Shown here: in pieces, positions 1,078 to 44,300 of the stretch
Layout of the letters: every line of letters begins with the position of its first letter
Numbering within the stretch: the stretch's first letter is position 1
Source of the DNA: Rhodanobacteraceae bacterium
GTDB lineage: Bacteria; Pseudomonadota; Gammaproteobacteria; Xanthomonadales; Rhodanobacteraceae
Length of the DNA: 64,000 nucleotides
Assembly: GCA_016790075.1 (NCBI GenBank)
Contig: JAEUPP010000068.1
Location: 162,659-226,658 of the forward strand
Direction of reading: 5' to 3'
Notes under the pieces: generated by a model
What the model was told of the DNA's origin: nothing
What the model saw: only the letters and a program-made list of their open reading frames with translations
Database searches by the model: none
Made by a program: the position numbers and the translations under genes

Positions 1078-1213
1078 TGGACCTCCAGGTTGTAGCGGTT
1101 TGCGTGGCAGGCAATGGGAAGTAGCCACCGCGGTCATGGCGAAGATACGTTGGCGTACGCGAGGATTAGGATCGCAACAGGCAGCCCCCCACCGGATGCT
1201 AACCGCTAATTAA

Positions 1214-1249: not shown

Positions 1250-1434
1250 CTATCTGTCGCCCATAGGATGCGCTACAGTATGCGGCTACGTTTCGGCTGG
1301 CTTGCACGGGCTTCCTGCAAGGGCTCGAACATTCTGCTGCAGCCTTTGTATCTACTTGGTTCACAGGGAAAATTGCCCGACTGCTCGCGACAGCCAGAAG
1401 GCCGCAGCATCGGCGCTTCGCGGAGACCGCTGCG

Positions 1435-5688: not shown

Positions 5689-5709
5689 GCGGCGGCAGGC
5701 AAGTACTCG

Positions 5710-7400: not shown

Positions 7401-7951
7401 TTCCCGCTTTGCGCTGCAGCAAGACGAGCAGCGGCGATCGCCGGTTTGAGTTCTTTCTCCACGTAGCCGGGCGTCAGTGCGCCGATGCGCTTGAGCCGGA
7501 TCATGCCTTCGCCGTCGACAAGAAAGGTCTCGGGCGCGCCGTAGACGCCGAAGTCGATCGCAGTGCGACCGGCCTGGTCAGTGACGATGACATCATAAGG
7601 ATTGCCAAAACGCGCGAGCCAGGCGTTGGCGTCGGCCGGATCATCCTTCCAGTTGTAGCCGATCAGCGGCACGCCCAGCTCCTTCGCATAGCGCACGAGT
7701 ACCGGGTGCTCGTCGACGCAGCTTGGGCACCAACTGCCGAATACATTGAGCAAATACGGCTTGCCTTTGAGATCGGCGCTGCCGAACTGGCGTGTCGTGT
7801 CGTTGAGTACCGGGAGACTGAATGCGGGTGCAGTCTTGCCGATCAGTGGCGAGGGAACTTCACGCTGATCGTGCTGCATGTTCCAGCGCAGTCCGAAACC
7901 CAGCAGCGCGACCAGCAGTGCGAAAGCGAACAGCGGCAGCAGGCGTGCCAT
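7397..7951 (-). CDS. ccmG: thiol:disulfide interchange protein CcmG/DsbE
   Basis: This is a membrane-anchored periplasmic thioredoxin-fold reductant of 184 residues. A single N-terminal membrane segment (about 4-20) precedes the thioredoxin domain. The active site is GSWCPSCVDEHP (Cys75, Cys78) and the cis-proline loop is GVYGAPETFLVD. The segment YNWKDDPADANAWLARFG matches the acidic insert characteristic of CcmG. The family reduces the apocytochrome haem-binding cysteines through CcmH. The start codon overlaps the ccmF stop as TGATG, and the gene overlaps ccmH by four bases. Confidence 0.93.
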   Translation of the reverse strand: MARLLPLFAFALLVALLGFGLRWNMQHDQREVPSPLIGKTAPAFSLPVLNDTTRQFGSADLKGKPYLLNVFGSWCPSCVDEHPVLVRYAKELGVPLIGYNWKDDPADANAWLARFGNPYDVIVTDQAGRTAIDFGVYGAPETFLVDGEGMIRLKRIGALTPGYVEKELKPAIAAARLAAAQSGK

Positions 7952-12965: not shown

Positions 12966-15869
12966 TCAGCGCGTGCTGCCGTCCAGGTAAGCGTGGTACT
13001 GGCGCAGGATTTCGGGATCGGGATTGGCCCATTGCGGCAGCAACGCGCTGGCCTCGGCCAGGGCGGTTTTCCGGTCGCCCGCATGTCCTTGCGCACCTGC
13101 CGCGCGGGCAAGCAGAGCCCAGGCCAGGGCGCGTGTTCCGGCGCTGCCGGCGCCGGCGTCGACGGTACCGTCGATGACACGCCGGGCAAGTTTTTCTGCT
13201 TCCGCCGGCCGGGCCAGCACGAGTTCGGCGCGGGCTTGCCCCAGCAACGCGGTTGCATAGCGCGGATCCTTGCGTGCGTCCAGCCGTTCCAGTTGCGCGG
13301 CACTTTCGGCATAACTGGCACGCGCCGCATCGGCATGTCCGTTAAGCAGTTGCGCCGCGGCCAGGGTCTGCCGTATCGCGGCGTTGTCACGGCTCTCGGC
13401 CAGGAGCTTGTCGGCGATGGCGACACCTTCGGCCGCGAGTGCCTCGGCCGCGGCGCCGTTGCCGCGGCGCCGTTGCAACTGGCTCAGGCCGTTCAGGCTT
13501 GCCATCACCAGCGGATGTACCTCGCCGACGCTGGCCCGGTGGCGGGCCAGCGCCGAGCGCAGCAGGGGCTCGGCCTCGTCGAAACGCTCCAGCCGGGTGA
13601 GGGCGCTGCCCAGATTGCCCTGTACCGTCAGCCCCTGCGGTGAATCGAGCAGTTGGTTCTTCTCGAATACGGCACGGGCCTCGGTCAGCAGTTCTACCGT
13701 CTGGCCAAAGTCCTGTCGTGCAATGGCGACGGTCGCCAGCGAATTCAGGGTCGATCCCACATGCGGATGCTCGGGTCCCAGTGCTTCGCGCTGGATCAGC
13801 AACGCTTCGTTCAGTGCCGCGGCGCATTCGTCGATGCGGCCCTGCTGGCGCAGCACGGTACCAAGGATCTGCAGGGTTTCTCCGACTGCGGCGTGACGTG
13901 GGCCAAAGCGTTTGCGCCGGATATCGAGCGCAAGGCGCAGTTGACGTTCGGCGTCGGCGCTGCGCTGGCGGGTGGCGAGCAGGGTCGCGTAGTCGTTGTG
14001 GACTTCCGCGGTCTGCGAATGCTCCTGGCCGAATGCGGCCTGGCTCTGGGCGATTGCGTCCAGGAACGCTGCGTCGGCTTCGTCGTAGCGTGCCAGGCGG
14101 CTCAACAGCAATGCCTCGACCTGGCGATTGCGTGCCCGTGCCCGGGCTGCTGATGCGTCGTTGCTGTCAATCAGTGTCGCGGCGGTGCGGATCGCGACCA
14201 GCCCTTCGGCGAACTCCCCCTGGCGGTCGTTGACCAGGGCGCGTTCGGTCAGCGCGGCGATGCGCTGCGGGGTGTCGCCGTCGCGCTCGGCCTCGGCCAG
14301 CAGTGCGAGGGCTGCGCTGAAATCCGCGCGTTCGCTGTGTGTGCGCGCCAGTTCAATTTCGTTGTTTACTATGTCTTTTTTATCACTTTGCAGCAAAAAG
14401 CCATCGCGTGCCTGGCGCAGCAAGGCTGCCGACTGCTCGAACTGACCCAACTGGCGGTACAAGGTGCCCAGCGTCTGGCGCATTTGCGCCTGCAGCGCCG
14501 GCTGGCCGGCGAGTTCCTGCTCGATGCGCGCGACACCCTGGTCAATCAGTTCGCGCGCAGTCACGCGCGCGCCGGCGGCGGCATCAGGTGCTGCAGCATC
14601 AAACACGCCGGTCAGGAAATTCTGTGCGGCGCGGGCAAGTTCAGCCTCGCGCGCGGCGCGTCTGGCCTGCGACAGCGCCAGCACGCTGCCACTCACAAGA
14701 GCCACCAGCGCCAGCAGCAGCGCGGCGGATGCGGCGCGGTGGCGGGCCACATAGCGGTGCAGGCGATACCAGCCGCTGTCGCGCCGCGCGAGTATGGGCG
14801 CACCGCGCAGAAAGCGGCGCACGTCATCGGCGAGCGCCTGCACCGTCGCGTAGCGGCGCGCCGGTTCCGGGTCGGTGGCGCGCGCAACGACAATGCCAAG
14901 GTCGCCGCGCAGTTGCCGAGGTGCGATGCCGCCCTGGGCAGCCGCTGCGGCATTGCTAAGGCGTTCACTGGCCGAACCGCGGTGTGCGGCGGGATTGTCG
15001 TGAAAGCGCGCACCGCTGAGCAGCTCAAACAGCAGCACACCCAGCGCATAGACGTCGACGGCTGTGCCTACCGGTTCGCCGCGCAGTTGTTCCGGCGCAG
15101 CGTAGGCACGGCTCAGAAAGCGCGCCCCTGTCTGGGTGCGGCTGTCGGCTTCGTCTTCCTCCAGCACCTTGGCGACGCCGAAATCAAGCAGGTGCGGCCG
15201 GTTGTCGGCATCGACGAGTACGTTGCCTGGCTTGATGTCGCGATGCACGACGAGCTGGGCATGGGCATAGGCGACGGCCTCGGCGAGTTCCACAAACAGG
15301 TCAAGCCGTTGGCTCAGCGTTGCCTGTGTCGCAGCAGCCCATTCGTTCAGCGGCAGGCCGGCGACATATTCCATGACGAACCAGGGCTGGCCCAATTCGC
15401 TCACCCCCCCGTCGAGCAGCCGCGCGATCTGTGGATGCTGCAACTGCGCGAGAATGCGCCGCTCGCGGCGAAAGCGCGTCAGGATCTCGCCGGAGTCCAT
15501 GCCGCGCTTGATCCATTTGAGCGCGCCCTGCTGCACATAGTCATCGCCATCGCGTGTGGCCAGAAACACCGCGCCCATGCCGCCGCGGCCTATGCGCTGC
15601 TGTACCGTCCAGCCACCAACTACCGTGCCAACGGGCAGTTCGTCGTCCGCGTCGCCCGCCAGCTGTTCGGCGACGCGGCTGGCACCGGCATCGAGCAGAT
15701 GCGGCGTGGCCTGCGCCGCGAGCAGCTGCAGCAGCAGCTCGGCCAGCGCTGGATCACCGGCGGTGCGCTGAGCGACAAAGGCGGCATGCTGTCCAGCTTC
15801 AAGTTCCAGCGCTTCGCGCAGCAGCGCGAGGGCTTGGCGCTTGCGTGCCAGTGTCTGGTCGTCGCTCAC
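12966..15869 (-). CDS. transmembrane Ser/Thr protein kinase with C-terminal TPR domain
   Basis: The protein has 967 residues. Kinase domain, about 83-355: glycine loop GRGGMGAVF, Lys118 in GALKWIK, catalytic HRDIKPGN (Asp211), DFG at 229-231 and APEQ at 258-261. One membrane helix (about 380-399) separates the cytoplasmic kinase from an extracytoplasmic region of about 560 residues built of tetratricopeptide units of the kinesin-light-chain type (HNDYATLLATRQRSADAERQL and similar). Its start overlaps the stop of an ECF sigma factor by four bases, so the two are co-translated. The likely role is phosphorylation-dependent control of that sigma factor in response to an envelope signal sensed by the TPR part. 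The ccm operon follows downstream. Confidence 0.88.
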   Translation of the reverse strand: MSDDQTLARKRQALALLREALELEAGQHAAFVAQRTAGDPALAELLLQLLAAQATPHLLDAGASRVAEQLAGDADDELPVGTVVGGWTVQQRIGRGGMGAVFLATRDGDDYVQQGALKWIKRGMDSGEILTRFRRERRILAQLQHPQIARLLDGGVSELGQPWFVMEYVAGLPLNEWAAATQATLSQRLDLFVELAEAVAYAHAQLVVHRDIKPGNVLVDADNRPHLLDFGVAKVLEEDEADSRTQTGARFLSRAYAAPEQLRGEPVGTAVDVYALGVLLFELLSGARFHDNPAAHRGSASERLSNAAAAAQGGIAPRQLRGDLGIVVARATDPEPARRYATVQALADDVRRFLRGAPILARRDSGWYRLHRYVARHRAASAALLLALVALVSGSVLALSQARRAAREAELARAAQNFLTGVFDAAAPDAAAGARVTARELIDQGVARIEQELAGQPALQAQMRQTLGTLYRQLGQFEQSAALLRQARDGFLLQSDKKDIVNNEIELARTHSERADFSAALALLAEAERDGDTPQRIAALTERALVNDRQGEFAEGLVAIRTAATLIDSNDASAARARARNRQVEALLLSRLARYDEADAAFLDAIAQSQAAFGQEHSQTAEVHNDYATLLATRQRSADAERQLRLALDIRRKRFGPRHAAVGETLQILGTVLRQQGRIDECAAALNEALLIQREALGPEHPHVGSTLNSLATVAIARQDFGQTVELLTEARAVFEKNQLLDSPQGLTVQGNLGSALTRLERFDEAEPLLRSALARHRASVGEVHPLVMASLNGLSQLQRRRGNGAAAEALAAEGVAIADKLLAESRDNAAIRQTLAAAQLLNGHADAARASYAESAAQLERLDARKDPRYATALLGQARAELVLARPAEAEKLARRVIDGTVDAGAGSAGTRALAWALLARAAGAQGHAGDRKTALAEASALLPQWANPDPEILRQYHAYLDGSTR

Positions 15870-16432
15870 GCGCGTAAAGCTGCAGCATTCATTTCTGTGG
15901 CGAGCAGTGCCCGCGCCACTTGCCAGTCACGCATGACCGTGCGCACGGTCAGGTCTTCAAGTTCGGCGATCTCGGGGAAGGCGAGTCCACCGAAGAAATG
16001 CAGCTGCACAACACGCGCGGCACGTTCGTCGATCTGCTCCAGCGTGCTGAGAGCCTGGTCAAGCGCGAGTACTTCGACCGCGTCCACCGGATCTTCCGGC
16101 AGACGGTCGTCGAGCGTCACCAGGACGGCGCCGCCGCCGCGTTTGTCCGCCTGCAGGCGCCGCGCATGATCGACCATGACCTGACGCATCGCACGAGCGG
16201 CGAGCGCCATGAAGTGCTGCCGGCTGCTCGTGCTGAGCTGGCTGGCCGCAGCGAGCTTCAAGTAGGTTTCATTGACCAACGCCGTCGTCGACAAGGTCAG
16301 CCCCGCATTGCCGCGCAGCTGATGGCGCGCGCAGTGGCGCAGCTCATCGTAAAGCAAGGTAAACAGGCGGTTCTGCGCGTCGCTTTCGCCGCGGCTGGCA
16401 GCCGCGAGCAGGGTGGTCACGTCATCATGCAT
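15866..16432 (-). CDS. ECF-type RNA polymerase sigma factor (kinase-linked type)
   Basis: The protein has 188 residues from the ATG at 16432 (MHDDVTTLLAAAS). It belongs to the Sigma70_ECF class with sigma2 (about 15-95) and sigma4 (LDQALSTLEQIDERAARVVQLHFFGGLAFPEIAELE...VRTVMRDW). Where normal ECF factors have the acidic DAED patch in region 2.2 that contacts RNA polymerase, this protein reads STTALVNETY. Thr/Ser in place of Asp/Glu is known in kinase-activated ECF factors such as Vibrio EcfP, where phosphorylation supplies the negative charge. The co-translated kinase downstream fits that model. No anti-sigma factor is nearby. Confidence 0.85.
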   Translation of the reverse strand: MHDDVTTLLAAASRGESDAQNRLFTLLYDELRHCARHQLRGNAGLTLSTTALVNETYLKLAAASQLSTSSRQHFMALAARAMRQVMVDHARRLQADKRGGGAVLVTLDDRLPEDPVDAVEVLALDQALSTLEQIDERAARVVQLHFFGGLAFPEIAELEDLTVRTVMRDWQVARALLATEMNAAALRA

Positions 16433-16520
16433 GGGGGCAGTCCGGGGAACTTGGCGCAACTGTGCGAGTGTGATGGCGTACGCGTCAATCGGGCTGTGCT
16501 CGGCGCTTTGTCGCTGTGGC

Positions 16521-16943
16521 TCAACAGCCCGCATAACAGCGCAGCTCGGCGATTCCATGGGCTTGCACCAGCACAATGGCGTTCTGGCCATGATGCTCGG
16601 CCAGCGCGTCGACTTCGCTCAAGCTCAATCCGGCGACGAACAGCGAGGGTTCGCGCCAGCGCTGCCCCGGAATGCGGCCGACTCCGGGCAGAACCCGCGC
16701 GCCGCAGGCCCGAACCGTATCCAGCAATTGCTTTTGTGTGCGCCGGTTGGCACCAGCGGGCTGGGCAACCGAGTGCGGGTTGTAGGCGGTGATGAAGAAG
16801 CCGAATGTCTCCCCGGCGAGCCATTCAGCCAGTGGCTGCGGTATCGGTTCGCCGATGCGCAAGGTCGCCCGGCCGCGGCCTCCGGGCAGGCGCACCAGAT
16901 AGTGGCTGGCGTGATAAAGCGCGAGCAGCTCGGTCGCGTCCAC
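16521..16943 (-). CDS. DUF3293 domain protein
   Basis: The protein has 140 residues, with a GTG start immediately after the TAA of kmo (TAAGTG), so it is almost certainly co-translated with it. The features FFITAYNPHSVAQPAGANRRTQKQLLD, PGVGRIPGQRWREPSLFVAGLS and GQNAIVLV match the uncharacterised DUF3293 family of soluble proteins. No catalytic residues are known. Its place at the end of the kynurenine operon may be only historical. It is followed by 88 noncoding bases before the ECF sigma factor gene. Confidence 0.7.
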   Translation of the reverse strand: MDATELLALYHASHYLVRLPGGRGRATLRIGEPIPQPLAEWLAGETFGFFITAYNPHSVAQPAGANRRTQKQLLDTVRACGARVLPGVGRIPGQRWREPSLFVAGLSLSEVDALAEHHGQNAIVLVQAHGIAELRCYAGC

Positions 16944-22623: not shown

Positions 22624-22735
22624 TGACGGTGAACGCCGGGGCGTGGCCTGCTGACCGGCAGCGCCGCTGTAGCGTTCCGGTGCTGGCTGTTTGCCCGCGA
22701 AAATACCGTGGTTTTCTTTGCCCGAAGGACTGGCG

Positions 22736-25141
22736 GTGACTTCCTCCGAGCCTGCGGCTGGCAACATGCAACGGCTGGCGGAAGATTGGGTGGCCCGCGA
22801 ACGCGAGGCGCTGGCTGCTTTCCGTGAGCTCATGGATGCGACGGCTGGCGAACAGGAAAACGCGCTTGCGGAGCTGCGTGAGCTCAGACCGGCTGTCTAC
22901 GAACGTGTTCAGGCCATGCTCGCCCGGCATCGCGAGGCGACGGATGGAGACTTCCGGCAGGCGGCTGCCGCGCTGTTCCGCCCCCTTCCGGCTCAACTCG
23001 GGCCGTTTCGCATCGTCGGGTTCATCGGCGAAGGCGGTATGGCGCAGGTCGTGCGCGGGGTCCGCACGATCGATCGTGGCGAACAGCATGTTGCCATCAA
23101 GCTCGTGTTCGCTCCGCCCAGCCAGCACATGCTTCGCGAACGCTTTCTGCGTGAGCGCAAGTTGCTGGCGCGCCTTCGCCATCCGGCCATCGCGCAGCTG
23201 ATCGATTTTGCCGAGACGCCGGACGGCCTGCTGTGGTACGCGATGGCTCTGATCGACGGCGTTTCCATCGAACAGTACGTGAGACAGAACCATTTCGGCA
23301 TGGCACATACGGCCGGCTTGATCATCGAGCTGTGTGATGTGCTGCGATACGCCCACGCGCTGGGCGTTATTCACCGGGACATCAAGCCGCAGAACGTGCT
23401 GGTGAATGCGGACGGCAAGCTTCACCTGATTGATTTCGGCATAGCCAAGGAGCTCGGCGACGATGCCGAACTGACGCTGCACGGCGGAGCGCCGATGACG
23501 CCGCACTACGCCTCGCCAGAGCAGCGCGAGCGAGCAGTGATTACCACGGCTGCCGATCAGTGGCAGGTCGCCGCAATGGCCTACGAGCTGCTGACCGGTT
23601 CGCGCGTTGACACGCTCGCCTCCGACTCGCCGCGGCGGCACCGGCGTTATGGGGCGCTGTCACCGGATCTCGGCGCGGTGTTGGCCAAGGCGCTGCGTAC
23701 GGAACCCGAAGATCGGTATGAATCGATCGCACTCCTGGGCAGCGATCTGCGCGCCGCGATCGAGGGCCGCCCGGTACAGGCGCGCATGGGCGAGCGCTGG
23801 TACGAATTCCGCAAATTCGTTTCCCGCCATCGCTGGGTGATCAGCGCAGCCGCCGTTATTGTGACCTCGCTGCTGCTGGCCGCCTGGATTTCCCTCGCTG
23901 CCGCCGGGCAGGCCAGAGAACAGGCGCGTATTGCTGAGCGCTCCAATGCGGTGCTCTCGGAGATATTCCTTTCGGACAAGCAAGGGCTCAATCTTCCACA
24001 GGCAACCCTGGCCAGCTTCATCGCCAACGGTGTGGAGCGCATGCTGGCGGAGCGCGAGCTGCCTGATTCCGCGCGCCTGAAACTGCTCGACACGCTGGCA
24101 GAACGTGCGATGGAGGCAGGTGAGTATGCCGCTGCCGAACGTGGCGCGCGGGAGGCGCTGCGGCTTGCGCGAGCCCAGGTGCCCGCGGACCGGCTCAGCA
24201 CAGGAAATGCCTGCTCGTTGCTGGCCTTTGTACTTCTGTATTCGTCCGATCGGGCAAAGCTCGATGCCGAGATTCAATCGTTGCTGCACGAAGCCCGCAT
24301 GCATGTCTATGCCAACGATGTGCCATCGGTCCGGGAAGCGGAGCTACGCATACTGGTAGAGCGAACTCACGCGTTTCACTCGGCATTCCAGCAGGACTTC
24401 GACGCAGCGCAGCGATATGCCGGCAAGTCAGCGGAGATCGCCGATCAATGGCTGGCGCATGACCCCTGGGCCGTTATCGGCGCCCGCCGCACGGCGGCGG
24501 TCATGTACGAGGGAGCGCAGCGCCATACCGATGCGGCGCGCGTTTATCGTGAAATTCTGGGTTACGCCGACTCACAGCTCGCGCAGCACCCGACGCTTGC
24601 GGAGTTCGTGCAATGGGATCGCACGGAGCACTGTTCGCAATTGTCGGTTCATGATCCGGCCGCCGCCGTGGTTGTGTGTACCGAAAACATCGCGTTGCTG
24701 GAGAAGAGTGGGCAGGCCGGGTCCAAGCTGGCCGTCGAGGCCGTGTCTTCGCTTGGCCGTAGCCTGGCGCGGCTTGGACGTTCAGAAGAAGCGTTGCAAC
24801 AGTATCAGCGCGCAGAGCGGATGCTCGCCGCGCTGGAGGGTGATGCGACAATGTCGATGCAGATGGCGTCGGTTCGCCGGCGCATTGGCCAGCGCCTGCT
24901 GCAGCTCGATCGTGCCGCGGAAGCGGTTCTCCCGCTGGAGTTCGTACTTGCGGTGATTCGTCTACGCGCTGCGGCTGGGGCGCCGGAGCAAGATGAGGTG
25001 CGCACAGAGTTGGCGCAGGCGCTTGCACGATCCGGCGCGCCGAGCCGGGCGAAGGCGCTGCTGGCGGAAGTGAGGAATCCGGAACGTATGGCTACCATCG
25101 CGCGTTCGCGCTATGAGGAGTTGCGGAAGCTGGGCAAGTAG
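22736..25141 (+). CDS. transmembrane Ser/Thr protein kinase with TPR-like C-terminal region
   Basis: I prefer the GTG at 22736 (801 residues) because GAAGGA lies six bases upstream; an ATG at 22691 is the alternative. An N-terminal helical extension (1-88) precedes the kinase domain: GEGGMAQVV loop, Lys122 in VAIKLVF, catalytic HRDIKPQN (Asp215), DFG at 233-235 and ASPEQ. A membrane helix (WVISAAAVIVTSLLLAAWISL) near 377-398 leads to an extracytoplasmic region of about 400 residues with helix-pair repeats (RLGRSEEALQQYQRAERML). The domain order matches the kinase at 12966-15869, but no sigma factor gene abuts it. The nearest is the ECF gene at 26625, 1.5 kb downstream on the same strand, beyond an opposite-strand gene. 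A terminator hairpin follows. Confidence 0.85.
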   Translation: MTSSEPAAGNMQRLAEDWVAREREALAAFRELMDATAGEQENALAELRELRPAVYERVQAMLARHREATDGDFRQAAAALFRPLPAQLGPFRIVGFIGEGGMAQVVRGVRTIDRGEQHVAIKLVFAPPSQHMLRERFLRERKLLARLRHPAIAQLIDFAETPDGLLWYAMALIDGVSIEQYVRQNHFGMAHTAGLIIELCDVLRYAHALGVIHRDIKPQNVLVNADGKLHLIDFGIAKELGDDAELTLHGGAPMTPHYASPEQRERAVITTAADQWQVAAMAYELLTGSRVDTLASDSPRRHRRYGALSPDLGAVLAKALRTEPEDRYESIALLGSDLRAAIEGRPVQARMGERWYEFRKFVSRHRWVISAAAVIVTSLLLAAWISLAAAGQAREQARIAERSNAVLSEIFLSDKQGLNLPQATLASFIANGVERMLAERELPDSARLKLLDTLAERAMEAGEYAAAERGAREALRLARAQVPADRLSTGNACSLLAFVLLYSSDRAKLDAEIQSLLHEARMHVYANDVPSVREAELRILVERTHAFHSAFQQDFDAAQRYAGKSAEIADQWLAHDPWAVIGARRTAAVMYEGAQRHTDAARVYREILGYADSQLAQHPTLAEFVQWDRTEHCSQLSVHDPAAAVVVCTENIALLEKSGQAGSKLAVEAVSSLGRSLARLGRSEEALQQYQRAERMLAALEGDATMSMQMASVRRRIGQRLLQLDRAAEAVLPLEFVLAVIRLRAAAGAPEQDEVRTELAQALARSGAPSRAKALLAEVRNPERMATIARSRYEELRKLGK

Positions 25142-30146: not shown

Positions 30147-31118
30147 TTATTGTTGCGCGCGCTGGCGCTGGCGCGACTGGGTGGCAACCAGCGCATCGCC
30201 GGCGACGGCGCTGTCCACAGCGATACCGAAGCGATTCGTACGCAGCAAGGGCGGGCAGCGCGTCAGCAGGGTATCGACAACCGACTGCTGCAACCGCGTG
30301 TAATACGGCTGACGGAAATACTGCAGCAACACCGGTACGTCGACCGGCTTGAATCCAGGGACGACGCGCACGGGCATTGAAGGGTCGAGCAAGTGCACGG
30401 GCACGACGGCACGGCCTATGCCTTCGCTGACGGCGTCGATCAGTCCGTAAATGTCATCGAAATAGGCGCGCTCCATACGCGGCACGGTTGAACCGGTCTG
30501 GCTCAGAAAGTACTTTTCGGTGAAGTTGTCGCGTGGTTCGTGATCGATGTAGCAGGCGTCGCGGCCGCTATAAATCGACGACTCGATCAGCACATTGCGC
30601 TCTATGCCGATCTGCACGTTCTCTATGCCGGCACGCTCGCATTCGGACAGGCTGACGCAGAAGTCCACCTTGCCCGCGATCAGTTTTTCGTGCAGCGCTT
30701 CGACTTCGGCCTTGAGTGCATGACAGGACAGCTTGGGATTGCCACGCAGCAGATAACCCAGCGCCGGAAGCACGACAGAACGCAGCGCCGAGGAGTAGGT
30801 GGCGATGCGAAAGAAGCCGGCGAGCTGGCCGGTCCGTTCCCCGACCAGGCTGGCAAGCAGTTCGGTTTCCTGATGTTCCAGTGCGGTGCCGTAGCGCTGC
30901 AGGCTGCGGCCGGTCTCGGTAAGCTCCAGCGCGCCGTACTGGCGTATCAACAGCGCCTGGCCGAGCAATGATTCCAGGTTCTGGATGCGCTTGGTCAGGG
31001 CTGGCTGGGTGATGTGCAGCAGATCCGCCGCGCGCGAAAAATTCAGTTCGCGCGCAAGTACCAGGAACGATTCCAGAAGCGGAGACGACAGCGGAAGCCG
31101 CATCAGTTGGCAGTCCAT
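30147..31118 (-). CDS. LysR-family transcriptional regulator
   Basis: The protein has 323 residues from the ATG at 31118 (MDCQLMRLP), which has GGAAG seven bases upstream; an ATG at 31103 is possible. The N-terminal winged helix reads LLESFLVLARELNFSRAADLLHITQPALTKRIQNLESLLG, and the rest is the periplasmic-binding-protein-like effector domain. The Thr-Lys variation in the recognition helix (QPALTKRI) is normal. A perfect T-N11-A dyad lies 20 bases upstream of this start, in the region shared with the divergent sigma/kinase/CHAT unit, so it should autoregulate and may control that unit or the downstream acylase. The effector is unknown. Confidence 0.88.
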   Translation of the reverse strand: MDCQLMRLPLSSPLLESFLVLARELNFSRAADLLHITQPALTKRIQNLESLLGQALLIRQYGALELTETGRSLQRYGTALEHQETELLASLVGERTGQLAGFFRIATYSSALRSVVLPALGYLLRGNPKLSCHALKAEVEALHEKLIAGKVDFCVSLSECERAGIENVQIGIERNVLIESSIYSGRDACYIDHEPRDNFTEKYFLSQTGSTVPRMERAYFDDIYGLIDAVSEGIGRAVVPVHLLDPSMPVRVVPGFKPVDVPVLLQYFRQPYYTRLQQSVVDTLLTRCPPLLRTNRFGIAVDSAVAGDALVATQSRQRQRAQQ

Positions 31119-31137
31119 GCATGAACTTCCGCACACT

Positions 31138-31152
31138 ATAACGCGAGGTTAT
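31138..31152. promoter_or_regulatory. LysR-type operator (ATAAC-N5-GTTAT)
   Basis: ATAAC (31138-31142) and GTTAT (31148-31152) form a perfect 15-base dyad of the T-N11-A type recognised by LysR proteins. It sits between the LysR gene (start 31118, minus) and the ECF sigma gene (start 31221 or 31236, plus), where such regulators usually bind. Binding by this LysR protein is inference. Confidence 0.55.
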
Positions 31153-31220
31153 CGCTAGCTGTACCAGCTTTCATTGGCGGGCGCATACAACGCATGGCAT
31201 TGTTTACGCCAGGGTAGAAC

Positions 31221-31883
31221 ATGGCGAGGGATACGATGTCTGCTGCTGGGAGTCTTGCTCGAGTTCTTCCGTTCGGTCGTGTTGGGGCAGAGCGGCCGGT
31301 AGCGGTGGCGGCGACTGAACCGACCGAAGTGCTGATCCGCCGCGTGCGTTCGGGTGAAGGAGTTGCCCGCGACGCCCTGGTGCGCCGTTTCCTTCCGTTG
31401 TTGCGCCAGTGGGCGCACGGACGTCTGCCGCGCGCCGCGCGCGATCTGCATGAAACCGAAGACCTGGTCCAGCTCGCTCTGATGCGTGCTCTGCGCCAGA
31501 TCGACCATTTCGAATGTGAGGGGCCCGGCAGCTTCCTCGCCTATCTGCGGCAGATCCTGCTGAACCAGGTGCGGGACGAAGTGCGGCGTCTGATGCGGCG
31601 TCCCGAGTCGGTCGAAATCGATACCGAGATGGCGGACAGCGATTTGCCCTCCCCGGTAGAGCAACTGGTTGGCCATGAGCGCCTGCGCGCTTACGAAGCG
31701 GCTCTGGCGAGTCTGCCCAAGCGGCAGCAGGGACTCATCGTCATGCGCCTGGAATTTGGCATGAGCTATCCCGAAATTGCCACCGAGGTGGGCAGCACGC
31801 CGGACGCGGTCAGGGTCATGGTGGCGCGTGCGCTGGTACAGCTGGCTACGGCACTGAAGCCGCATCAGGCCGAGCACGCTTAA
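31221..31883 (+). CDS. ECF-family RNA polymerase sigma factor
   Basis: The protein has 220 residues from the ATG at 31221, or 215 from 31236, where GAGGG precedes the start. Sigma2 spans about 40-110 with the canonical acidic region 2.2, DLHETEDLVQLALMRAL. Sigma4 is about 155-210 (LASLPKRQQGLIVMRLEFGMSYPEIATEVGSTPDAVRVMVARAL). Unlike the sigma factors at 15866 and 26625 it keeps the ETED patch, so phosphorylation is not needed for core binding, and control by the neighbouring kinase must work differently. It is the first gene of a three-gene plus-strand unit with the kinase (165 bases later) and the CHAT protein. Confidence 0.85.
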   Translation: MARDTMSAAGSLARVLPFGRVGAERPVAVAATEPTEVLIRRVRSGEGVARDALVRRFLPLLRQWAHGRLPRAARDLHETEDLVQLALMRALRQIDHFECEGPGSFLAYLRQILLNQVRDEVRRLMRRPESVEIDTEMADSDLPSPVEQLVGHERLRAYEAALASLPKRQQGLIVMRLEFGMSYPEIATEVGSTPDAVRVMVARALVQLATALKPHQAEHA

Positions 31884-32048
31884 GCGAAACGCATCGTCTG
31901 CAGGGCAGCGCCGGTTCCCGGCAATCTGCGATGCAGTCTGGATGCGGCTTGTGACACAGTTCGCAGTTTTTCGCCTGCGCGTGTTCTGATGGATGCCCCG
32001 CCATCGTTGAATCAAAGGTCGCCCGCACAGCACGGGCAGGGGAACTCC

Positions 32049-33665
32049 ATGGCCGGCGAGAATCCGGATCTTGAAAAGATAGCCGCAGGCATTGCTGACG
32101 ATGCCGCGCTGGACTGGCGTCTGCTCGCCAAGCTCGACTCCACAGCCGCCGAAGCGGGCGATGGGCTGCGCGAGCTGTCGCAGCTGGCGCAAGTATTCCG
32201 CGGGCTGCAGCTCAAGCCCGAGCGTGCGGCGCAGAGTTCGGTGCAATTCCGTTTCGCCGGGCTTGACGTGCTGGAGCGATTGGGCTGCGGCGCCCAAGGT
32301 GAGGTCTGGCGGGCCTACGACCCCATGCTTGACCAGGAAGTCGCGCTGAAACTGCGCCATGTGGATTCCGATACATTGGCCCACCACTTCCTGGCCGAGG
32401 GCCGCCGCCTCGCCAAGCTGCGCCACCCCAATATCGTCAGCGTTTACGGCGCCGCGGCGCAGGATGGCCGGGTCGGGCTCTGGATAGAGCTCGTGCGCGG
32501 ACGCAGCCTGGCCGAGCTGCTGCAGAGCGAAGGCCCGCTGGGCGCGGCTGATGCAGTGCAGATCGGTATCGAGCTTTGCCGCGGCCTCGCCGCGGTGCAC
32601 CGGCACGGCCTTACCCACGGCGACGTTAAGGCCGAGAACGTGCTGCGCGATGCCAGCGGCCGCATCGTATTGGCAGATTTCGGCGCAGCGCGCGAATTCG
32701 AGCTTTGCAGCGAGTTCGACCCGGTTTCCGGTACGCGGCAATACCTGGCTCCCGAAGTGCTGGCTGGAGATCGAACGACACCTGCCTCGGACCAGTTCGC
32801 TGTCGGCGTGCTGCTGTATCGGTTGTTGACCGGGAGTTATCCCTATCTTGCTGACGACCTTGAAGGCCTGCGCCAGGAGCAACTGGCCCAGGCGCGGCGT
32901 CCACTGCATGAACTGCGGCCGGACCTGCCGCGGGCGCTTGCGCAGGCTGTTGAACGGGCTTTGGCGCCGAACCCGGCGCGGCGTCATGCGGGCATGCTGG
33001 TGCTGCTTACTGCCTTGGAAGCGGCGCTGCGGCCCTGGCGCATGCGGCCTGCGCACTGGGCAGGGATTGCCGCTGTCTGCGCCCTGTTTGCCTTGGCCGC
33101 AGCGTTCTGGCGCGCGGCGCCGCCGCCGTCGTTTGCTGTCGACAGCGGTTTCTACCGCGACCAGGAGGGCCGCCGCGAACGTCTTGCCGACGGCGCGACC
33201 ATAGCGGTCGGCGATCGCCTGCGGCTGGATCTTGCTGCGGCCCAACAGACGTGGATCTATGTCTTCAATGACGACGGCTCGGCCGTTCCGACGGTGCTGT
33301 TTCCGTTGTCCGGTATCGCGCCGACGAATCCGCTACGGCCCGGCACACGCTGGCAGTTGCCAGGGCATGACGGAGTTACCGCACTCAGCTGGCAGGTCGA
33401 TCGTGAAGCCGAACGCGAGACGTTCATTCTCGTTGCCTCGGCCGAGCCGTTGCCGCAGGTCGAACGGCGCGTCGCGGAGTGGGGGCACAGTATGACCCCG
33501 GACGAGGCATTGGTTGCCCGCGGGGTCGGCCGGCTGGCGCCGGTGCAGACCCCGGCCGCAGTTGAAGGTGCCGGCTTGGCGGCGCTGTTGCGTGAGATTG
33601 GCTGTGACGCGGCCAGGCGCACGCTGCACTGTGAGCGCTTTGTATTTCCTCAGACACGCCGGTAG
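32049..33665 (+). CDS. transmembrane Ser/Thr kinase with C-terminal DUF4384-like domain
   Basis: The protein has 538 residues from the ATG at 32049, preceded by AGGGGAA. Kinase domain, about 73-325: GCGAQGEVW loop, Lys101 in VALKLRHV, catalytic loop THGDVKAENV with Asp192, DFG in LADFGAAREF, and APEV. The usual HRD arginine is glycine (HGD), making it a non-RD kinase that should not need activation-loop phosphorylation. A membrane helix (HWAGIAAVCALFALAAAFW) near 335-355 is followed by a beta-rich extracytoplasmic domain (DGATIAVGDRLRLDL, TWIYVFNDDG, VLFPLSG, FILVASAEPLP). I read that domain as DUF4384, a module found with caspase-type proteins. It is located between the ECF sigma gene and a TPR-CHAT protease gene. 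Confidence 0.85.
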   Translation: MAGENPDLEKIAAGIADDAALDWRLLAKLDSTAAEAGDGLRELSQLAQVFRGLQLKPERAAQSSVQFRFAGLDVLERLGCGAQGEVWRAYDPMLDQEVALKLRHVDSDTLAHHFLAEGRRLAKLRHPNIVSVYGAAAQDGRVGLWIELVRGRSLAELLQSEGPLGAADAVQIGIELCRGLAAVHRHGLTHGDVKAENVLRDASGRIVLADFGAAREFELCSEFDPVSGTRQYLAPEVLAGDRTTPASDQFAVGVLLYRLLTGSYPYLADDLEGLRQEQLAQARRPLHELRPDLPRALAQAVERALAPNPARRHAGMLVLLTALEAALRPWRMRPAHWAGIAAVCALFALAAAFWRAAPPPSFAVDSGFYRDQEGRRERLADGATIAVGDRLRLDLAAAQQTWIYVFNDDGSAVPTVLFPLSGIAPTNPLRPGTRWQLPGHDGVTALSWQVDREAERETFILVASAEPLPQVERRVAEWGHSMTPDEALVARGVGRLAPVQTPAAVEGAGLAALLREIGCDAARRTLHCERFVFPQTRR

Positions 33666-33743
33666 GCGAAGATCCGCGCACTTGCTGTCGTCGCTCGCCG
33701 CTACGTGGCGGAAGCACAGCACTCTTGCCGCAGGGATCACCGC

Positions 33744-36734
33744 ATGTTGCGTCGCCGTGTTAGCTGGATTGTGCTGCTGCTCGCTTTCACCTTCGTGCCG
33801 CTGGCACGGGCCGACATCACCGCTGCGATCGACGCGCTGGTTCCGGCGGAGGACTGGGCGCAGGCCAGGGCGCTAGGTATTGCTGCTCTGGCCGAACCAC
33901 GCGAACACGATGCAGCACTCGTTGCGCTGTTCAATGCGGTGCTCGAAAGCCCCGCTGATTTCAGCGAAGCGGAGTGGTCGCCCTGGATTGCTGAGCTGGA
34001 GGCGCGCCGCCGCACCGAAGATGTGCGTGCCCGTTCCCTTGCCACGCTGGCGGCCTGGCGTGCTCAACGGGCCTTCCAGGCGCGGGAACGCGATGCGGCG
34101 GTGGCAGCGGTAGATGAAGCCCTGGCGCTGCTGCGCGAGGGCAGCGGGCGTATTGGCGCTGCCGAGCGGGCCTATGTGCTGACCAGTGCAGGGCAGATCC
34201 GCGGACTGCTCGGTAACTTTGCGGAAGGTGCGGCGCTCGCCGGCGAGGCGGTGGCGGTGCTGCGCAATCCACGCAGCATGCTGGAGCGGGCGCGGCGCCT
34301 GAGGGCGCTGTTTTTCCAGGCCCTGTTTGAAGACCGCCTCGCCCATTACGACACGGCGATGGCGCTGGCGCGCCAGGGCATAGCCGAAGCCGAGCAGTTC
34401 AATGTGCCCAACAACGGCTATCGACGTCGTCTGGTCGGTGTGCTCAGTGAGAGCCTGCTCTCGCGCGGTGATTTCACCGCAGTACGCGATCTGATGCGGC
34501 CTGAGCTCGAGCGTCAGCGTGCGCAAGTCAATCCGTCGGCACGCGATCTGGCGATGACCCTTGGGCATCTGGCGGAGGCGGAACGCCAGCTTGGTGATCG
34601 CGAGCGCGCGCTTGACTACTACCGCGAGTCGGCCCAGGCCGCAGCCAAGGATCCCGCGCTGGTCGCAGCCGGCAGCTATGCGGCGATTCTTGGCAATCTG
34701 GGTTCGCTGGCTTACGAACTGCAGCGTTACGAGGAGGCCGATACGGCGTTGGGCCAGAACCTGAGTCTGCTCGAACAGCAATTTGGTGGCGACAGCCTGC
34801 GCGTAGTCCCGCCGCTGATCAACTTCGGTGAGGTGGCATTTGAGCGCAATCTGCTGGATGAAGCCGAGCAGCGCTTCCGCCGTGCCCTCGCCATTGTCGC
34901 GACTCAGCTTGGGGCGGAACATGCAGAAGGAGCACCGGCGCTGCGCGGATTGGCCCGCGTATTGCTGCGGCGCGGTGATGCGGCGGCCGCTGCCGCCGCG
35001 CTCCAGGGCGCGATCGCGCAGCAGGAAGCCGCGGCCGGCACCGAGCATGTGCAGTTGCTGGGTTGGCGCTGCGAACTGGCGGAAGCGCTGGCTCAACGCG
35101 GCGATAAGGCTGCGGCGTTTCAGCAGGCGCTGGTCGTGGAACAGCGGCGCAACCGGCTCGTTGCGAGCGTTGCGCCGGTGCTGGGAGAAACTCAGGCACT
35201 GGAGTTCAAGCGTAATCTGGCGCGCTGCAGTGAACGACTGCTGGCGATTGCGGCCGCCTCGGCCGACCCGCGCCAGATTGACGCGGCCTGGAGCGAAATA
35301 GCCGCGGCACGGGGGCTCGCCACGCGGCTGGTAGCGCAGCGTATCGCACACGCGCGGGAACATGCCGATACGGCCGCAAGACCGCGCTGGGAGCGCTGGT
35401 TCAAGGCTGCATCGGCTTATGCGGACGCGGTGCGCGGCGGCGGAGAGGCGGCGCTGACGGAGTTACGCCAAGAACTCGACGCCGCAGTTGAAGCGCTGGG
35501 TGAGAGCGCGCCGCTGCAACCGTTGCCGAATACTTCGGTGGCGCAACTGATGGCGAAACTGCCGTCAGAGACTGCGCTGGTCGCGTTTGCCGCCGGCGCT
35601 GGCGCGGCCCCGTCCCGGCTTTATGCCTTTGTTGCCGAACCGGGTGCGGCGCCACGGCTGCTCGCACTGGGCGAGGTCGAAGCGCTCGATGCGCGCATGG
35701 AGCGATGGTATCGACTGCTGCGCGAGCCAAGCCGGGAACAGGAACTGGGCGAAGCGGGTCAGGCCGTGCGGCGGCACCTGTTCGACGCGCTCGGTCTGGC
35801 TCGCCTCGACCGCCGTTTGTTCGTTGTCGCCGACGCGGGCGTGCACCGGCTCAATTTTGCGGCGCTGCCCGACGGCGAAGGCTTCCTGGTCGAACGTGGC
35901 CTGCGCCTGCACGGGCTTGAAACTGAGCAGGATCTGGTCGGAGTCGCGACCACGCCGGCACGCGAGGGGTTGTTGCTGCTAGGCGTGCCCGAACTCGCAC
36001 GCAGTGATGCGACTGCGCTTGGCCGCCTGCGGGGCAACTGCCCCGAGTTCGGTAGTGCATTGCAATCCTTGCCGGGTGCCGAGCGCGAAATCGAGGTGCT
36101 TGCACAGCTGTCGCGTGCGGCGGGCCGCGACGACGTGGTCGCGCTCAAAGGGGCCGAGGCGACGCTGACCGCACTGCGCCGCACTTCGCCGCAGTCGGGA
36201 ATTATTCACTTTGCCACCCATGCGTTCGAGCTGGGCGCGGGTTGTGCAGCGCAGATCGGAGCCGCGGCGCGGCGTGGGGTGGGGGTGCGTCGCGAAGCCG
36301 TTGCGGTGCCGACTGCGCGCGCGGCGCTCGCACGCGAAGCTGGGCTGGTGCTCAGCGGCGAGCGTGGCCGCAACGGTCTGTTGCTGGGCGCCGACGTCAG
36401 CACACTTGCACTGCAGGGAGTGGGCTGGGTCGTGTTGTCGGCCTGTGACACAGGACTGGGCGCGCGTCTGGATGATGAAGGCGTATTCGGTCTGCGCCGT
36501 GCGTTCCGCCTCGCCGGCGCACGCACGGTGCTGATGAGCCTTTGGCCCGTAGACGACGCCGCGACATCGGCCTGGATGGAGGCGCTCTATCGCGCACGGC
36601 TGGTCGAGCATCGCACTACGGTCGACGCGGTCGCCGATGCAGGCCTCAGTGTGCTGCAGTCACGCCGCGCGCGTGGCGAGTCACTGCACCCGTTCTACTG
36701 GGCCGGGTTCGTTGCCGCGGGTGATTGGCGTTAG
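33744..36734 (+). CDS. exported TPR-CHAT (caspase-like) protease
   Basis: The protein has 996 residues from the ATG at 33744, where a clean signal peptide begins (MLRRRVSWIVLLLAFTFVPLARA); the ATG at 33705 would add a hydrophilic leader. About 550 residues of tetratricopeptide-type helix pairs (for example LGHLAEAERQLGDRERALDYYRESAQ) precede a linker. The C-terminal CHAT domain has the catalytic dyad His826 (IIHFATHAF) and Cys901 (WVVLSACDTGLG), followed by GVFGLRRAFRLAGARTVLMSLWPVDDAAT. CHAT proteases are clan CD peptidases related to caspases and separase; some are effectors activated through their TPR part. This one is probably periplasmic. It follows the DUF4384 kinase by 78 bases in the same unit. 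Confidence 0.88.
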   Translation: MLRRRVSWIVLLLAFTFVPLARADITAAIDALVPAEDWAQARALGIAALAEPREHDAALVALFNAVLESPADFSEAEWSPWIAELEARRRTEDVRARSLATLAAWRAQRAFQARERDAAVAAVDEALALLREGSGRIGAAERAYVLTSAGQIRGLLGNFAEGAALAGEAVAVLRNPRSMLERARRLRALFFQALFEDRLAHYDTAMALARQGIAEAEQFNVPNNGYRRRLVGVLSESLLSRGDFTAVRDLMRPELERQRAQVNPSARDLAMTLGHLAEAERQLGDRERALDYYRESAQAAAKDPALVAAGSYAAILGNLGSLAYELQRYEEADTALGQNLSLLEQQFGGDSLRVVPPLINFGEVAFERNLLDEAEQRFRRALAIVATQLGAEHAEGAPALRGLARVLLRRGDAAAAAAALQGAIAQQEAAAGTEHVQLLGWRCELAEALAQRGDKAAAFQQALVVEQRRNRLVASVAPVLGETQALEFKRNLARCSERLLAIAAASADPRQIDAAWSEIAAARGLATRLVAQRIAHAREHADTAARPRWERWFKAASAYADAVRGGGEAALTELRQELDAAVEALGESAPLQPLPNTSVAQLMAKLPSETALVAFAAGAGAAPSRLYAFVAEPGAAPRLLALGEVEALDARMERWYRLLREPSREQELGEAGQAVRRHLFDALGLARLDRRLFVVADAGVHRLNFAALPDGEGFLVERGLRLHGLETEQDLVGVATTPAREGLLLLGVPELARSDATALGRLRGNCPEFGSALQSLPGAEREIEVLAQLSRAAGRDDVVALKGAEATLTALRRTSPQSGIIHFATHAFELGAGCAAQIGAAARRGVGVRREAVAVPTARAALAREAGLVLSGERGRNGLLLGADVSTLALQGVGWVVLSACDTGLGARLDDEGVFGLRRAFRLAGARTVLMSLWPVDDAATSAWMEALYRARLVEHRTTVDAVADAGLSVLQSRRARGESLHPFYWAGFVAAGDWR

Positions 36735-42476: not shown

Positions 42477-44300
42477 TCAGTTCCAGCCGCAGCGCTTGCC
42501 CTTGTTCTGCTGCTTGAGCCAGCTGTGCAGTGGAGCGAAGTAATCGAGAATGGCTGATGCATCCATCTCGCCCTTGCCGGTCAACTCTTTCAAGGTCGAC
42601 TGCCAGGGCTGGCTCGCACCCTTTTCCAGCATGGCCCAGAATTTCGCACCTGCGGCCTTGTTGCCATAGATCGAGCATTCGTGCAGCGGCCCGCTATAGC
42701 CGGCGGCCTTGCACAGTTCGCGCTGGAACTGGAACTGCAGGATATGGGCGAGGAAATAGCGCATGTACGGCGTATTGCCGGGTACGTGATACTTCGCGCC
42801 GGGATCAAAGTCGGCCTCGCTGCGCGCCACCGTCGGCGCGACGCCCTGGTACTTGCGCTTGAGTGCCCACCATGCCGCGTTGTAGCCGTCGGGCTTGATC
42901 GAGCCATCGAACACGCCCCAGCGCCATTCGTCGATGAGCTTGCCGAAGGGCAGGAAAGCGACTTTCTCCAGCGCCTGCTTCATCTGCGCGTTGAGCATTG
43001 CTTCCTTGCTGGGTTTGCTGGCGCCCGCCAGGCCGACTTCCGCGAGATAGCCCGGGGTCAGATTCAGCTGGATCGTGTCGCCTACCGCTTCGTGGAAACC
43101 ATCGTGTGCACCGGTCTGGAACAGGACCGGCAGCTTGTTGTAGGCCAGGTAGTAATAGATATGACCTAGCTCGTGGTAGATCGTGCGGAAATCTTCCTCG
43201 TTGATGTTGATGCACATCTTGATGCGCACATCACCTTCAAGGTTCAGATCCCAGGCGCTGGCATGACAGACCACGTCGCGGTCGGCCGGACGTTTGAGCT
43301 GGGATTTTTCGTAGAACGATTTCGGCAGCGACGGGAAACCAATCGAGGTATAGAAGTCCTCGGCGCGCCGGATCATGGTTTCCGGAGTGTAGTTCTTCTC
43401 CTTGAGTGCAGCGTCCACATCAAGGTTGGACACACCCGGATAGGGCTGCAACAGCGGATACAGCGCCGCCCAGTCCTGCGCCCACATATTGCCGGTGATA
43501 TGCGCCGGGATGGTGCCGTCCTTGGCCAGCTTGCCCGGATACTGCTGTTCGAGCTTGTGCCGCGCATAGCATTGCAGGTCCTTGTACAGCGGTTCGACCT
43601 GGCTCCAGAGGCGGTCGGTTTCCTTGCGGAAATCGGCTGCGCTCATGTCATAGCTTGCGCGCCACATGTCGCCCGCGTTGGCGTAGTCCATCTCGCGCGC
43701 GCCTTCATTGACGAGTTCGGCGAAGCGTGCGTAGTCCTTGCGCATGTCGCGCGCGACGTTGTGCCAGGCGGTCCATGCTTCGAGATCCGCATCCCAGTCG
43801 CGGTTCTCGGCCAGTACCTTGCTGAGCTGATCGAGATTGCGGCAGGTTTCTGGCTTGCTCTCGTCAGTGCAGGACTTGCCCGAGCCGTAGGCCGCATTCA
43901 GGCGCGATGCGATCTGGGTCAGCTCGGCCAGCTTGGCCGGATCTTTCGGTGCGGGCATTGCAGTCTGCAAGCGGAGCAGGTCGATGCTGCGCTGCGTGGC
44001 CGGAGCAATGCCGGCGACTGTGCGAAACTGTTTGGATTTTTCCACATTGGCGGAAAGGCGGGAAAGCGCGCGCTCGTTGGCCTTGGCCACGAGCACTTCA
44101 GTGTCACCATTGATATAGGTTTCCGAAACCCATTGCGCTGCACTGATTTCGACGTAGTTGTCACGGATTTCCTGGTTGATGCCGGCAACGAAGCGATCGG
44201 CCGCGGCTGCATCAGCCGACTGGGCCGAGGCATCAGGTGCAAGGCCGTTGCTGATACAGAAAATCAGGGCCAACGCAAGTGCAGAACGAACTGGTTTCAC
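42477..44300 (-). CDS. secreted M2-family metallopeptidase (ACE-like dipeptidyl carboxypeptidase)
   Basis: The protein has 607 residues with a signal peptide (MKPVRSALALALIFCISNGLAPDASA). The M2 zinc motif is TIYHELGHIYYY (His376, Glu377, His380), with the third ligand in HEAVGDTIQL. Other family marks are NMWAQDWAALYPLL, DRDVVCHASAWDLN and KFWAMLEKGASQPW. M2 enzymes remove C-terminal dipeptides. Bacterial forms of about 600 residues are single-domain and periplasmic or extracellular. It is monocistronic, with a hairpin downstream and a 9-bp direct repeat ahead of the gene. Confidence 0.92.
   Translation of the reverse strand: MKPVRSALALALIFCISNGLAPDASAQSADAAAADRFVAGINQEIRDNYVEISAAQWVSETYINGDTEVLVAKANERALSRLSANVEKSKQFRTVAGIAPATQRSIDLLRLQTAMPAPKDPAKLAELTQIASRLNAAYGSGKSCTDESKPETCRNLDQLSKVLAENRDWDADLEAWTAWHNVARDMRKDYARFAELVNEGAREMDYANAGDMWRASYDMSAADFRKETDRLWSQVEPLYKDLQCYARHKLEQQYPGKLAKDGTIPAHITGNMWAQDWAALYPLLQPYPGVSNLDVDAALKEKNYTPETMIRRAEDFYTSIGFPSLPKSFYEKSQLKRPADRDVVCHASAWDLNLEGDVRIKMCININEEDFRTIYHELGHIYYYLAYNKLPVLFQTGAHDGFHEAVGDTIQLNLTPGYLAEVGLAGASKPSKEAMLNAQMKQALEKVAFLPFGKLIDEWRWGVFDGSIKPDGYNAAWWALKRKYQGVAPTVARSEADFDPGAKYHVPGNTPYMRYFLAHILQFQFQRELCKAAGYSGPLHECSIYGNKAAGAKFWAMLEKGASQPWQSTLKELTGKGEMDASAILDYFAPLHSWLKQQNKGKRCGWN

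Follow-up and report, generated by a model that had tools for sequence, protein, structure and literature searches.

The window analysed here, a stretch of 64,000 nucleotides forming part of one contig (JAEUPP010000068.1) in the 5.6 Mb draft genome of a Rhodanobacteraceae bacterium, carries a three-gene unit on its plus strand (31221-36734), in which the gene of an extracytoplasmic function (ECF) sigma factor is followed by those of a membrane Hanks-type kinase with a DUF4384 ectodomain and of a TPR-CHAT protein. The original prediction, made from the letters alone, had placed three such genes in this order and at these positions, and both the open reading frames (ORFs) and Pfam bear it out. 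We found that the three genes form a recurring unit, that the DUF4384 kinase and the exported-looking TPR-CHAT gene occur together, and that the catalytic residues of the kinase and the CHAT domain, as well as a threonine in region 2.2 of the sigma factor (sigma2.2), are strongly conserved. We propose that the unit may work as an envelope-to-transcription relay, running from the exported TPR-CHAT protein through the DUF4384 ectodomain and the Hanks-type kinase to the ECF sigma factor, a proposal that we regard as evenly poised between right and wrong.

A protein search with the CHAT sequence (E ≤ 1e-20) over 61 near genomes gave matches in 15, including every one of the 8 genus genomes, of which the window's is one. 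The order sigma factor, kinase, DUF4384, CHAT on one strand was found in 14 of the 16 loci fetched round these matches, and the other two are cut by contig ends, L023 inside the TPR part and L024 so that only the CHAT end is left. The TPR part gave no tblastn match in L027 and L033. An apparent kinase-CHAT fusion in L033 was rejected, since its 1681-residue frame reads the kinase gene in the wrong frame and the genes are separate. The 14 loci come from the genus, from elsewhere in its family and from further families of the order; adjacency in relatives, which the original prediction had named as a check on the unit, is thus conserved while the flanking genes change. A scan of genome contigs, of which we considered the best 80 of 539 matches, added complete units in Dokdonella (L035) and Rudaea (L048), the latter also of the Rhodanobacteraceae, a rearranged unit (L036) and one contig too short to judge (L034). 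The flanks of the other 76 (up to 6 kb, some contigs being shorter) showed no clear sigma-kinase pair, with a weak sigma-type match (21-41 bits) in nine and a kinase in two (L063, and L060 with a 20-bit ectodomain match).

The link between CHAT gene and ectodomain type was measured in 200 genomes of the order, using three profile searches in which the best few candidates per genome were scored. The CHAT profile (A1, E ≤ 1e-60) matched 11 places in 9 genomes, the kinase profile (A2, E ≤ 1e-70) 71 places in 34 genomes, and the sigma profile (A3, E ≤ 1e-35) 43 genomes. All 10 kinase places that matched A2 over the full length at 600 bits or more lie beside a CHAT place, with gaps of up to about 1.3 kb; the eleventh CHAT place (L129, genome G081) lacks a signal-like N-terminus, and its contig of 6.7 kb shows neither a sigma nor a kinase match. 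Five further DUF4384 kinases (L123-L127) were recovered with an ectodomain profile built without them, Pfam agreeing for four, and in L125 a TPR-CHAT gene lies downstream on the strand of the kinase. Taken together, a TPR-CHAT gene stands close to 13 of the 15 DUF4384 kinases of this search, while a broader CHAT profile found none near related kinases without DUF4384 (0/52 loci, 49 with a sigma gene and 46 with at least 3 kb downstream). For 13/15 against 0/46, the Fisher test gives p = 1.6e-11, kinship not being controlled. The CHAT-kinase coupling of the original prediction therefore holds for the DUF4384 type of kinase. The contrast loci were drawn from the A2 and A3 match lists, a part of the listed places being fetched; among 12 of their kinases scanned with Pfam, DUF4384 occurred in none and TPRs above the cut-off in 10. 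One contrast kinase, L128, is a bare kinase domain of 378 residues; DUF4384 is missing from it, and the 11.5 kb of its locus show no CHAT gene. Two others of the 12, sigma-linked kinases of 1251 and 1204 residues (L133:1435-5187 and L136:1488-5099), carry an AAA_16 ATPase domain after the kinase domain.

In a kinase-domain tree of 76 rows, the 24 DUF4384 kinases and L128 form one starred group with two changes of ectodomain label, the tree being made with a quick method and having some long branches. L128 reads as a joint loss of ectodomain and CHAT gene. A TPR-CHAT gene accompanies 22 of these 24 kinases if one includes L023, truncated in the TPR part by its contig end, and L161, in which some 4 kb lie between. 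As CHAT had led us to 19 of the 24 loci, the window being one of them, 13/15 is the unbiased figure. The CHAT tree (100 rows) unites the 17 window-type linked CHATs and L034, whose contig is too short for neighbours, with support 100, and sets the CHATs of L123, L125 and L127 apart as a second lineage (support 99), so that two CHAT lineages partner one kinase group. L161, which is not in the CHAT tree because its match is split, is a contig from the phylum Eisenbacteria that bears all three genes on the minus strand within about 10 kb: sigma factor at 8677-9351, DUF4384 kinase at 6855-8717 and TPR-CHAT at 13574-16801. It belongs to a draft metagenome assembly, in which a binning error is possible. 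Wider ectodomain searches gave mostly weak matches, in 7 of 274 genomes of the class and 4 of 299 of the phylum (own genome in both), and four of their loci scanned with Pfam (L150, L152-L154) had DUF4384 but no kinase domain. The fragmentary L024 was left out of the alignments, L023 entered only A2 and the kinase tree, and L032, with a short TPR-CHAT frame of 653 residues, was omitted from A1.

The TPR-CHAT protein is encoded at 33744..36734 (+; Pfam CHAT 4.1e-48, TPR_12 1.5e-14), in an ORF that opens at GTG 33705. Its length is 1009 residues from this GTG and 996 from ATG 33744. The ATG is probably the true start, because L018, L019 and L020 have a matching ATG and because a hydrophobic stretch (MLRRRVSWIVLLLAFTFVPLARA) then becomes N-terminal; the residue numbers of the original prediction agree with it. 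A signal-peptide-like N-terminus read by eye (33744..33812) is followed by a TPR-like helical superhelix (33855..35504; helix pairs in model mf098af5814e7, mean pLDDT 84.6, pTM 0.76) and the CHAT domain (35763..36725). A 12-residue N-terminal stretch with a mean hydropathy of 2.1-3.2 was found in 13 of the 15 loci scanned, the exceptions being the fragment L024 and L032, whose frame lacks the N-terminus. Catalytic His826 (36219..36221) and Cys901 (36444..36446) are invariant in all 22 aligned CHAT proteins, including the second lineage, so the intact dyad of the original prediction stands, and the protein belongs by domain and dyad to the CHAT proteases, proteolysis itself being predicted. Three cysteines, 766, 834 and the catalytic 901, are common to all 14 window-type CHATs in A1, and five of these proteins have no other cysteine past residue 30. 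Cys766 (36039..36041) and Cys834 (36243..36245) are retained together in 19 of the 22 proteins and are both missing in the three of the second lineage. This joint pattern suggests that they are putative disulfide partners, and hence that the protein may reside in an oxidising compartment such as the periplasm. Together with the signal-like N-terminus, the conserved extra cysteine pair makes the claimed export of the CHAT protein credible.

The kinase gene lies at 31989..33665 (+; Pkinase 5.3e-43), and its product starts at 31989 (558 residues) or at ATG 32049 (538 residues), both with matching ATGs in several genus loci; the kinase starts in A2 were set by hand and carry no evidence on the true ones. 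Lys121, Asp212, Asn217, Asp230 and Gly232 are invariant in the 16 aligned kinases, which thus possess the catalytic Lys, Asp, Asn and Asp-Phe-Gly of Hanks-type kinases. HGD replaces HRD in these 16, while the Eisenbacteria kinase has HRD. A predicted membrane helix (residues 354-376, 33048..33116; a helix in model m5018dd4cf4ca and hydrophobic by reading) separates the kinase domain from the DUF4384 ectodomain (residues 406-487, 33204..33449; Pfam 1.6e-6), whose score is barely above the Pfam cut-off (28.5 against 27 bits). A fold search with the kinase model returned only kinase domains among the 50 matches listed and is uninformative on the ectodomain. The sigma factor (31221..31883, +; 220 residues; Sigma70_r2 6.5e-13, Sigma70_r4_2 9.5e-13; A3) has the sigma2.2 motif E-T-E-D. 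Its threonine, Thr79 (31455..31457), is a candidate phosphosite that is invariant in the 15 unit sigma factors of A3, and a threonine in xTxD recurs in all 53 further sigma factors of this kind. This count omits the duplicate locus L140 and includes 52 factors with an adjacent kinase match and one without (L137); where two candidate motifs occurred, the one at the motif's place was taken, and a weak second sigma match in each of L183 and L186 was not counted. By comparison, none of the six other ECF relatives from the same genome with a candidate motif that could be read (8 examined) had threonine at this place. The window neighbours scanned by Pfam include no anti-sigma gene, anti-sigma models not having been searched in the relatives.

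On the proposed relay, the TPR superhelix would be the sensor and would substitute in trans for the TPR part that is fused in related kinases. Judging from their co-occurrence, the CHAT protease would act on the DUF4384 ectodomain or dock to it and so switch the kinase, which in turn would phosphorylate and activate the sigma factor, with Thr79 as the best candidate site by analogy with the pairs EcfP/PknT and EcfK/PknS. Contact with the ectodomain is argued for because the presence of CHAT tracks DUF4384 rather than the sigma factor, and for the same reason, that CHAT follows the ectodomain type and not the sigma type, we favour CHAT as the input rather than the output, the direction of signalling being something we infer.

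How the protease might switch the kinase can be put more specifically. Behind the ectodomain lies a low-confidence linker (residues 501-527, 33489..33569; pLDDT <50), otherwise poorly conserved, in which Arg511 is invariant in 24/24 DUF4384 kinases and Gly512 is kept in 23/24. The window-type CHATs have in turn an invariant Arg844 (19/19) in a loop between the catalytic His and Cys, followed by a peptide that resembles that of the kinase. Between kinase and CHAT of one locus, the two peptides agree better at positions +1 to +3 after the arginine than they do in shuffles (p = 0.0016, 18 pairs; p = 0.0057 with 12 representatives picked after viewing the alignment), kinship not being controlled in either value. 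Arg511-Gly512 is tentatively a candidate cleavage or docking site. One might speculate that the switch is cleavage after Arg511 and that the Arg844-Gly loop of CHAT, which resembles the Arg511 site, restrains the protease. The whole chain, in which a periplasmic CHAT protease with a TPR sensor, held in check by its pseudosubstrate Arg-Gly loop, would cut the kinase ectodomain after Arg511 and thereby switch the kinase, sigma phosphorylation and transcription, seems to us unlikely. The available text of one source (PMC6426788) describes orthocaspases as cleaving after basic residues.

Several observations weigh against the relay or its cleavage step. The CHAT gene is convergent in L123 and L127, so it is not co-transcribed with the kinase there, and in L161 it lies about 4 kb upstream, with subtilase and radical-SAM genes between it and the sigma gene. 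In L124 and L126, DUF4384 is present but the roughly 7 kb fetched downstream contain no CHAT gene, and L126 also has no recognisable sigma gene. In L123, DUF4384 scores under the Pfam cut-off (20.5 bits) and the contig stops within the sigma match. The loci underlying A1 and A2 are CHAT-linked, so that the searches are biased, and export was judged solely by eye and by a hydropathy scan. The AAA ATPase domain in the kinases of L133 and L136 means that the picture of a periplasmic TPR sensor in cis is not universal, and not every related sigma-linked kinase need be a receptor kinase. The sigma2.2 motif keeps its acidic residues, so the sigma factor is not obviously inactive without phosphate. 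As to the arginine, the second CHAT lineage has no RG loop, L124 and L126 retain the Arg with no CHAT nearby, and among 30 other proteins, taken from the phylum search as a control, 8 have RG[VIAST] behind DUF4384. An RG within 75 residues of DUF4384 was present in 11 of these 30 (29 informative, the tail in L220 being empty).

We fetched 20 DUF4384 loci with longer flanks and looked for caspases with a crude motif, and with Pfam on seven chosen proteins. Among the nine RG-bearing loci (L232-L240), L238 has a CHAT gene and L240 a caspase directly next to the DUF4384 gene, and L239 has a CHASE2-cyclase; among the other 11 (L241-L251), none had a CHAT gene and three had a caspase-like motif (L245, L249 and L251). 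For want of enrichment, RG as a mark of CHAT partners was rejected and the cleavage idea downgraded. Some of these loci are worth recording in their own right. In L238, from another genome of the phylum, a lipoprotein-like TPR-CHAT protein (5601-7874) is encoded upstream of a secreted-looking DUF4384 protein (8458-9339), with no kinase or sigma match in 18 kb. L240:8328-11367 encodes a DUF4384 protein and then a caspase (Peptidase_C14) that has a signal-peptide-like start and an FGE-sulfatase domain, and CHASE2-adenylate cyclase genes lie directly upstream of DUF4384 genes in L239:6177-8111 and L241:6440-8368. On contig C42 of the window's own genome (L251), a Sel1-repeat caspase (Peptidase_C14; 813-2963, minus strand) lies about 6 kb from a second DUF4384 gene of this genome.

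Among the alternatives, the one that survives best makes the TPR-CHAT protein an output, such that the kinase-sigma pair senses envelope stress via DUF4384 and induces the exported protease as its main target gene. The position of the CHAT gene, last in the unit and close downstream, would suit it, as would the separate convergent CHAT gene in L123 and L127, which could be a regulon member. However, CHAT tracks DUF4384 on the kinase and not the sigma factor, being absent from all 52 kinase loci of other build, 49 of them with a sigma gene, and from L128 together with the ectodomain; we judge this alternative rather unlikely. Another possibility is that the TPR-CHAT protein works in the periplasm without proteolysis, as a co-receptor or chaperone of the kinase, and that its dyad serves some slow or unrelated activity. 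TPR superhelices commonly serve as binding scaffolds, and the RG loop also occurs where the partner is not a CHAT protein, both of which would accord with it, but His and Cys remain invariant in 22/22 proteins although members of A1 can be as little as 29% identical to the window protein, and we consider a purely binding role decidedly unlikely.

The original prediction had also entertained a defence or programmed-death module, after the Csx29 systems of type III-E CRISPR. In its favour are the fold match to Csx29 and the fusion of DUF4384 to caspase-like proteins in cyanobacteria, reported in the available part of PMC7475262. The fold match gives no function, though, and the window neighbours ParC and penicillin amidase are of housekeeping type. 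PADLOC gave no match for the sigma factor or the CHAT protein at E ≤ 0.01, and its matches for the kinase (best 25 of 34) are confined to the kinase domains of defence kinases such as PD-T4-6 and mad6, which says little. We hold a defence role to be very improbable. That the three genes are neighbours without a joint function, held together by descent, is hardly credible: all unit-bearing loci but one lie in one order, as far as known, and the Fisher test ignores kinship, but the unit is kept across families while flanking genes change, it occurs in a draft genome of another phylum, two CHAT lineages go with one kinase group, and both ectodomain and CHAT are missing in L128.

To the left of the unit the window has a LysR-family regulator (30147..31136, minus strand; HTH_1 5.5e-18), a divergent neighbour in the genus loci, and a penicillin amidase, and to the right ParC (Pfam). 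The true lysR start may be near 31103, since residue 12 is where the matches of three of five relatives start. The stretch separating lysR from the sigma gene contains a near-perfect palindrome, TATAAC-N5-GTTATC (31137..31153), both arms of which are kept in all six aligned genus loci including the window; TTTCATTGG is also conserved there in 6/6. LysR and penicillin amidase accompany the unit in L018-L022, the five genus loci with enough flank, and were not found at the remaining fetched loci, while ParC is nearby in the genus loci L019, L020 and L024 and in L025 and L029. The palindrome therefore leaves room for local regulation by LysR in the genus loci, but the 'LysR-gated' label finds no support as a property of the system. 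The interpretation of the original prediction is thus supported as to a conserved unit with no CRISPR gene among the neighbours scanned, an exported-looking CHAT protein, its dyad and its coupling to the kinase, and unsupported as to LysR gating and defence or cell death. Elsewhere in the window are a second Ser/Thr kinase of 816 residues with a weak TPR match (22691-25141, +), near which no sigma-like ORF was seen by eye among the ORFs of at least 120 residues listed between 21400 and 22800, and a Peptidase_M2 gene of the angiotensin-converting-enzyme-like kind (42477-44300, minus strand).

These results bear on the way in which signals reach Hanks-type kinases that are paired with ECF sigma factors. 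If a periplasmic protease indeed feeds the kinase, caspase-like proteases, receptor kinases and sigma factors would be joined in one bacterial pathway, DUF4384 would gain a role as a protease-partner domain, and the control of sigma factors by TPR-CHAT proteins would extend beyond CRISPR systems. Going by titles and the beginnings of abstracts, with few subscription papers covered, we did not find the combination of sigma factor, DUF4384 kinase and TPR-CHAT protein described in the literature.

Fold searches place the TPR-CHAT protein near several known proteins. The best Foldseek matches of its model in the PDB include human separase (rank 1), DdvA (rank 2) and Csx29 (rank 7), with modest TM-scores of a kind that repeats inflate; a search of the PDB with the CHAT sequence profile A5 gave nothing at E ≤ 0.001, its best hit being an unrelated chain at 0.69. 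Separase likewise joins a helical scaffold to a caspase-like protease, and, according to the available text of PMC6858450, cleaves its substrates behind Arg and is inhibited by a pseudosubstrate, but it is eukaryotic, is not exported and is very distant (12-13% identity in the fold alignment). DdvS/DdvA of Myxococcus xanthus likewise couples an ECF sigma factor to a membrane regulator, going by the PDB title (8rot_A, E 8.6e-12); DdvA is, however, an anti-sigma factor (PMC4374960, available part), and the fold match may rest on TPR repeats only.

The type III-E CASP/Craspase system (Csx29, Csx30, CASP-sigma) also links a TPR-CHAT protease to an ECF-like sigma factor (PMC10028731, available part), and Csx29 (8eey_B, Foldseek E 3.5e-11) has a TM-score of 0.37 by query and 0.47 by target. 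The comparison drawn in the original prediction survives as a fold-level analogy, which the CHAT sequence profile does not pick up at E ≤ 0.001. In the unit the CHAT protein is exported-looking, a kinase stands in between and no CRISPR gene occurs among the neighbours scanned, in keeping with the non-CRISPR label; Cas7-11 and Csx30 are absent from the 16 window proteins scanned with Pfam, no dedicated Cas search having been made. Csx29, by contrast, works with an inhibitor of the sigma factor and not with a kinase, as the same source describes in its available part. ECF54 likewise has a sigma gene near a CHAT gene, with subtilase or carboxypeptidase neighbours also; the available text of PMC8999054 names no kinase for it and proposes proteolytic control, and we liken it to the unit by description alone.

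The closest comparison is with the ECF43 pairs EcfP/PknT of Vibrio parahaemolyticus and EcfK/PknS of Xanthomonas citri, in which, according to the available parts of PMC8999054 and PMC13147305, an ECF sigma gene likewise adjoins a membrane Hanks-type kinase and sigma2.2 has a threonine. The adjacent kinase gene that marks ECF43 is present in the unit. In ECF43, by these same texts, the sigma2.2 motif corresponding to DxxD is typically depleted of acidic residues, as in STTA or QTTA, with the phosphorylated threonine third, exceptions being noted there (EcfK itself has QATE). The unit differs, for its motif is E-T-E-D and that of the others read xTxD, with threonine second and the acid kept. 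PknS consists of a kinase, a membrane helix and a periplasmic part with TPRs, besides an N-terminal extension (PMC13147305, available part), whereas the ectodomain of the unit is DUF4384, not TPR, and an extra exported-looking TPR-CHAT protein is added. The accessible portion of the review PMC8999054 mentions other kinase-linked ECF groups that keep acidic residues, some with a nearby Ser/Thr, and whose mechanism may differ; judged by its motif, the present sigma group fits this description. On the best reading, the unit is a variant of kinase-linked ECF signalling, distinct from ECF43, from Craspase and from defence systems.

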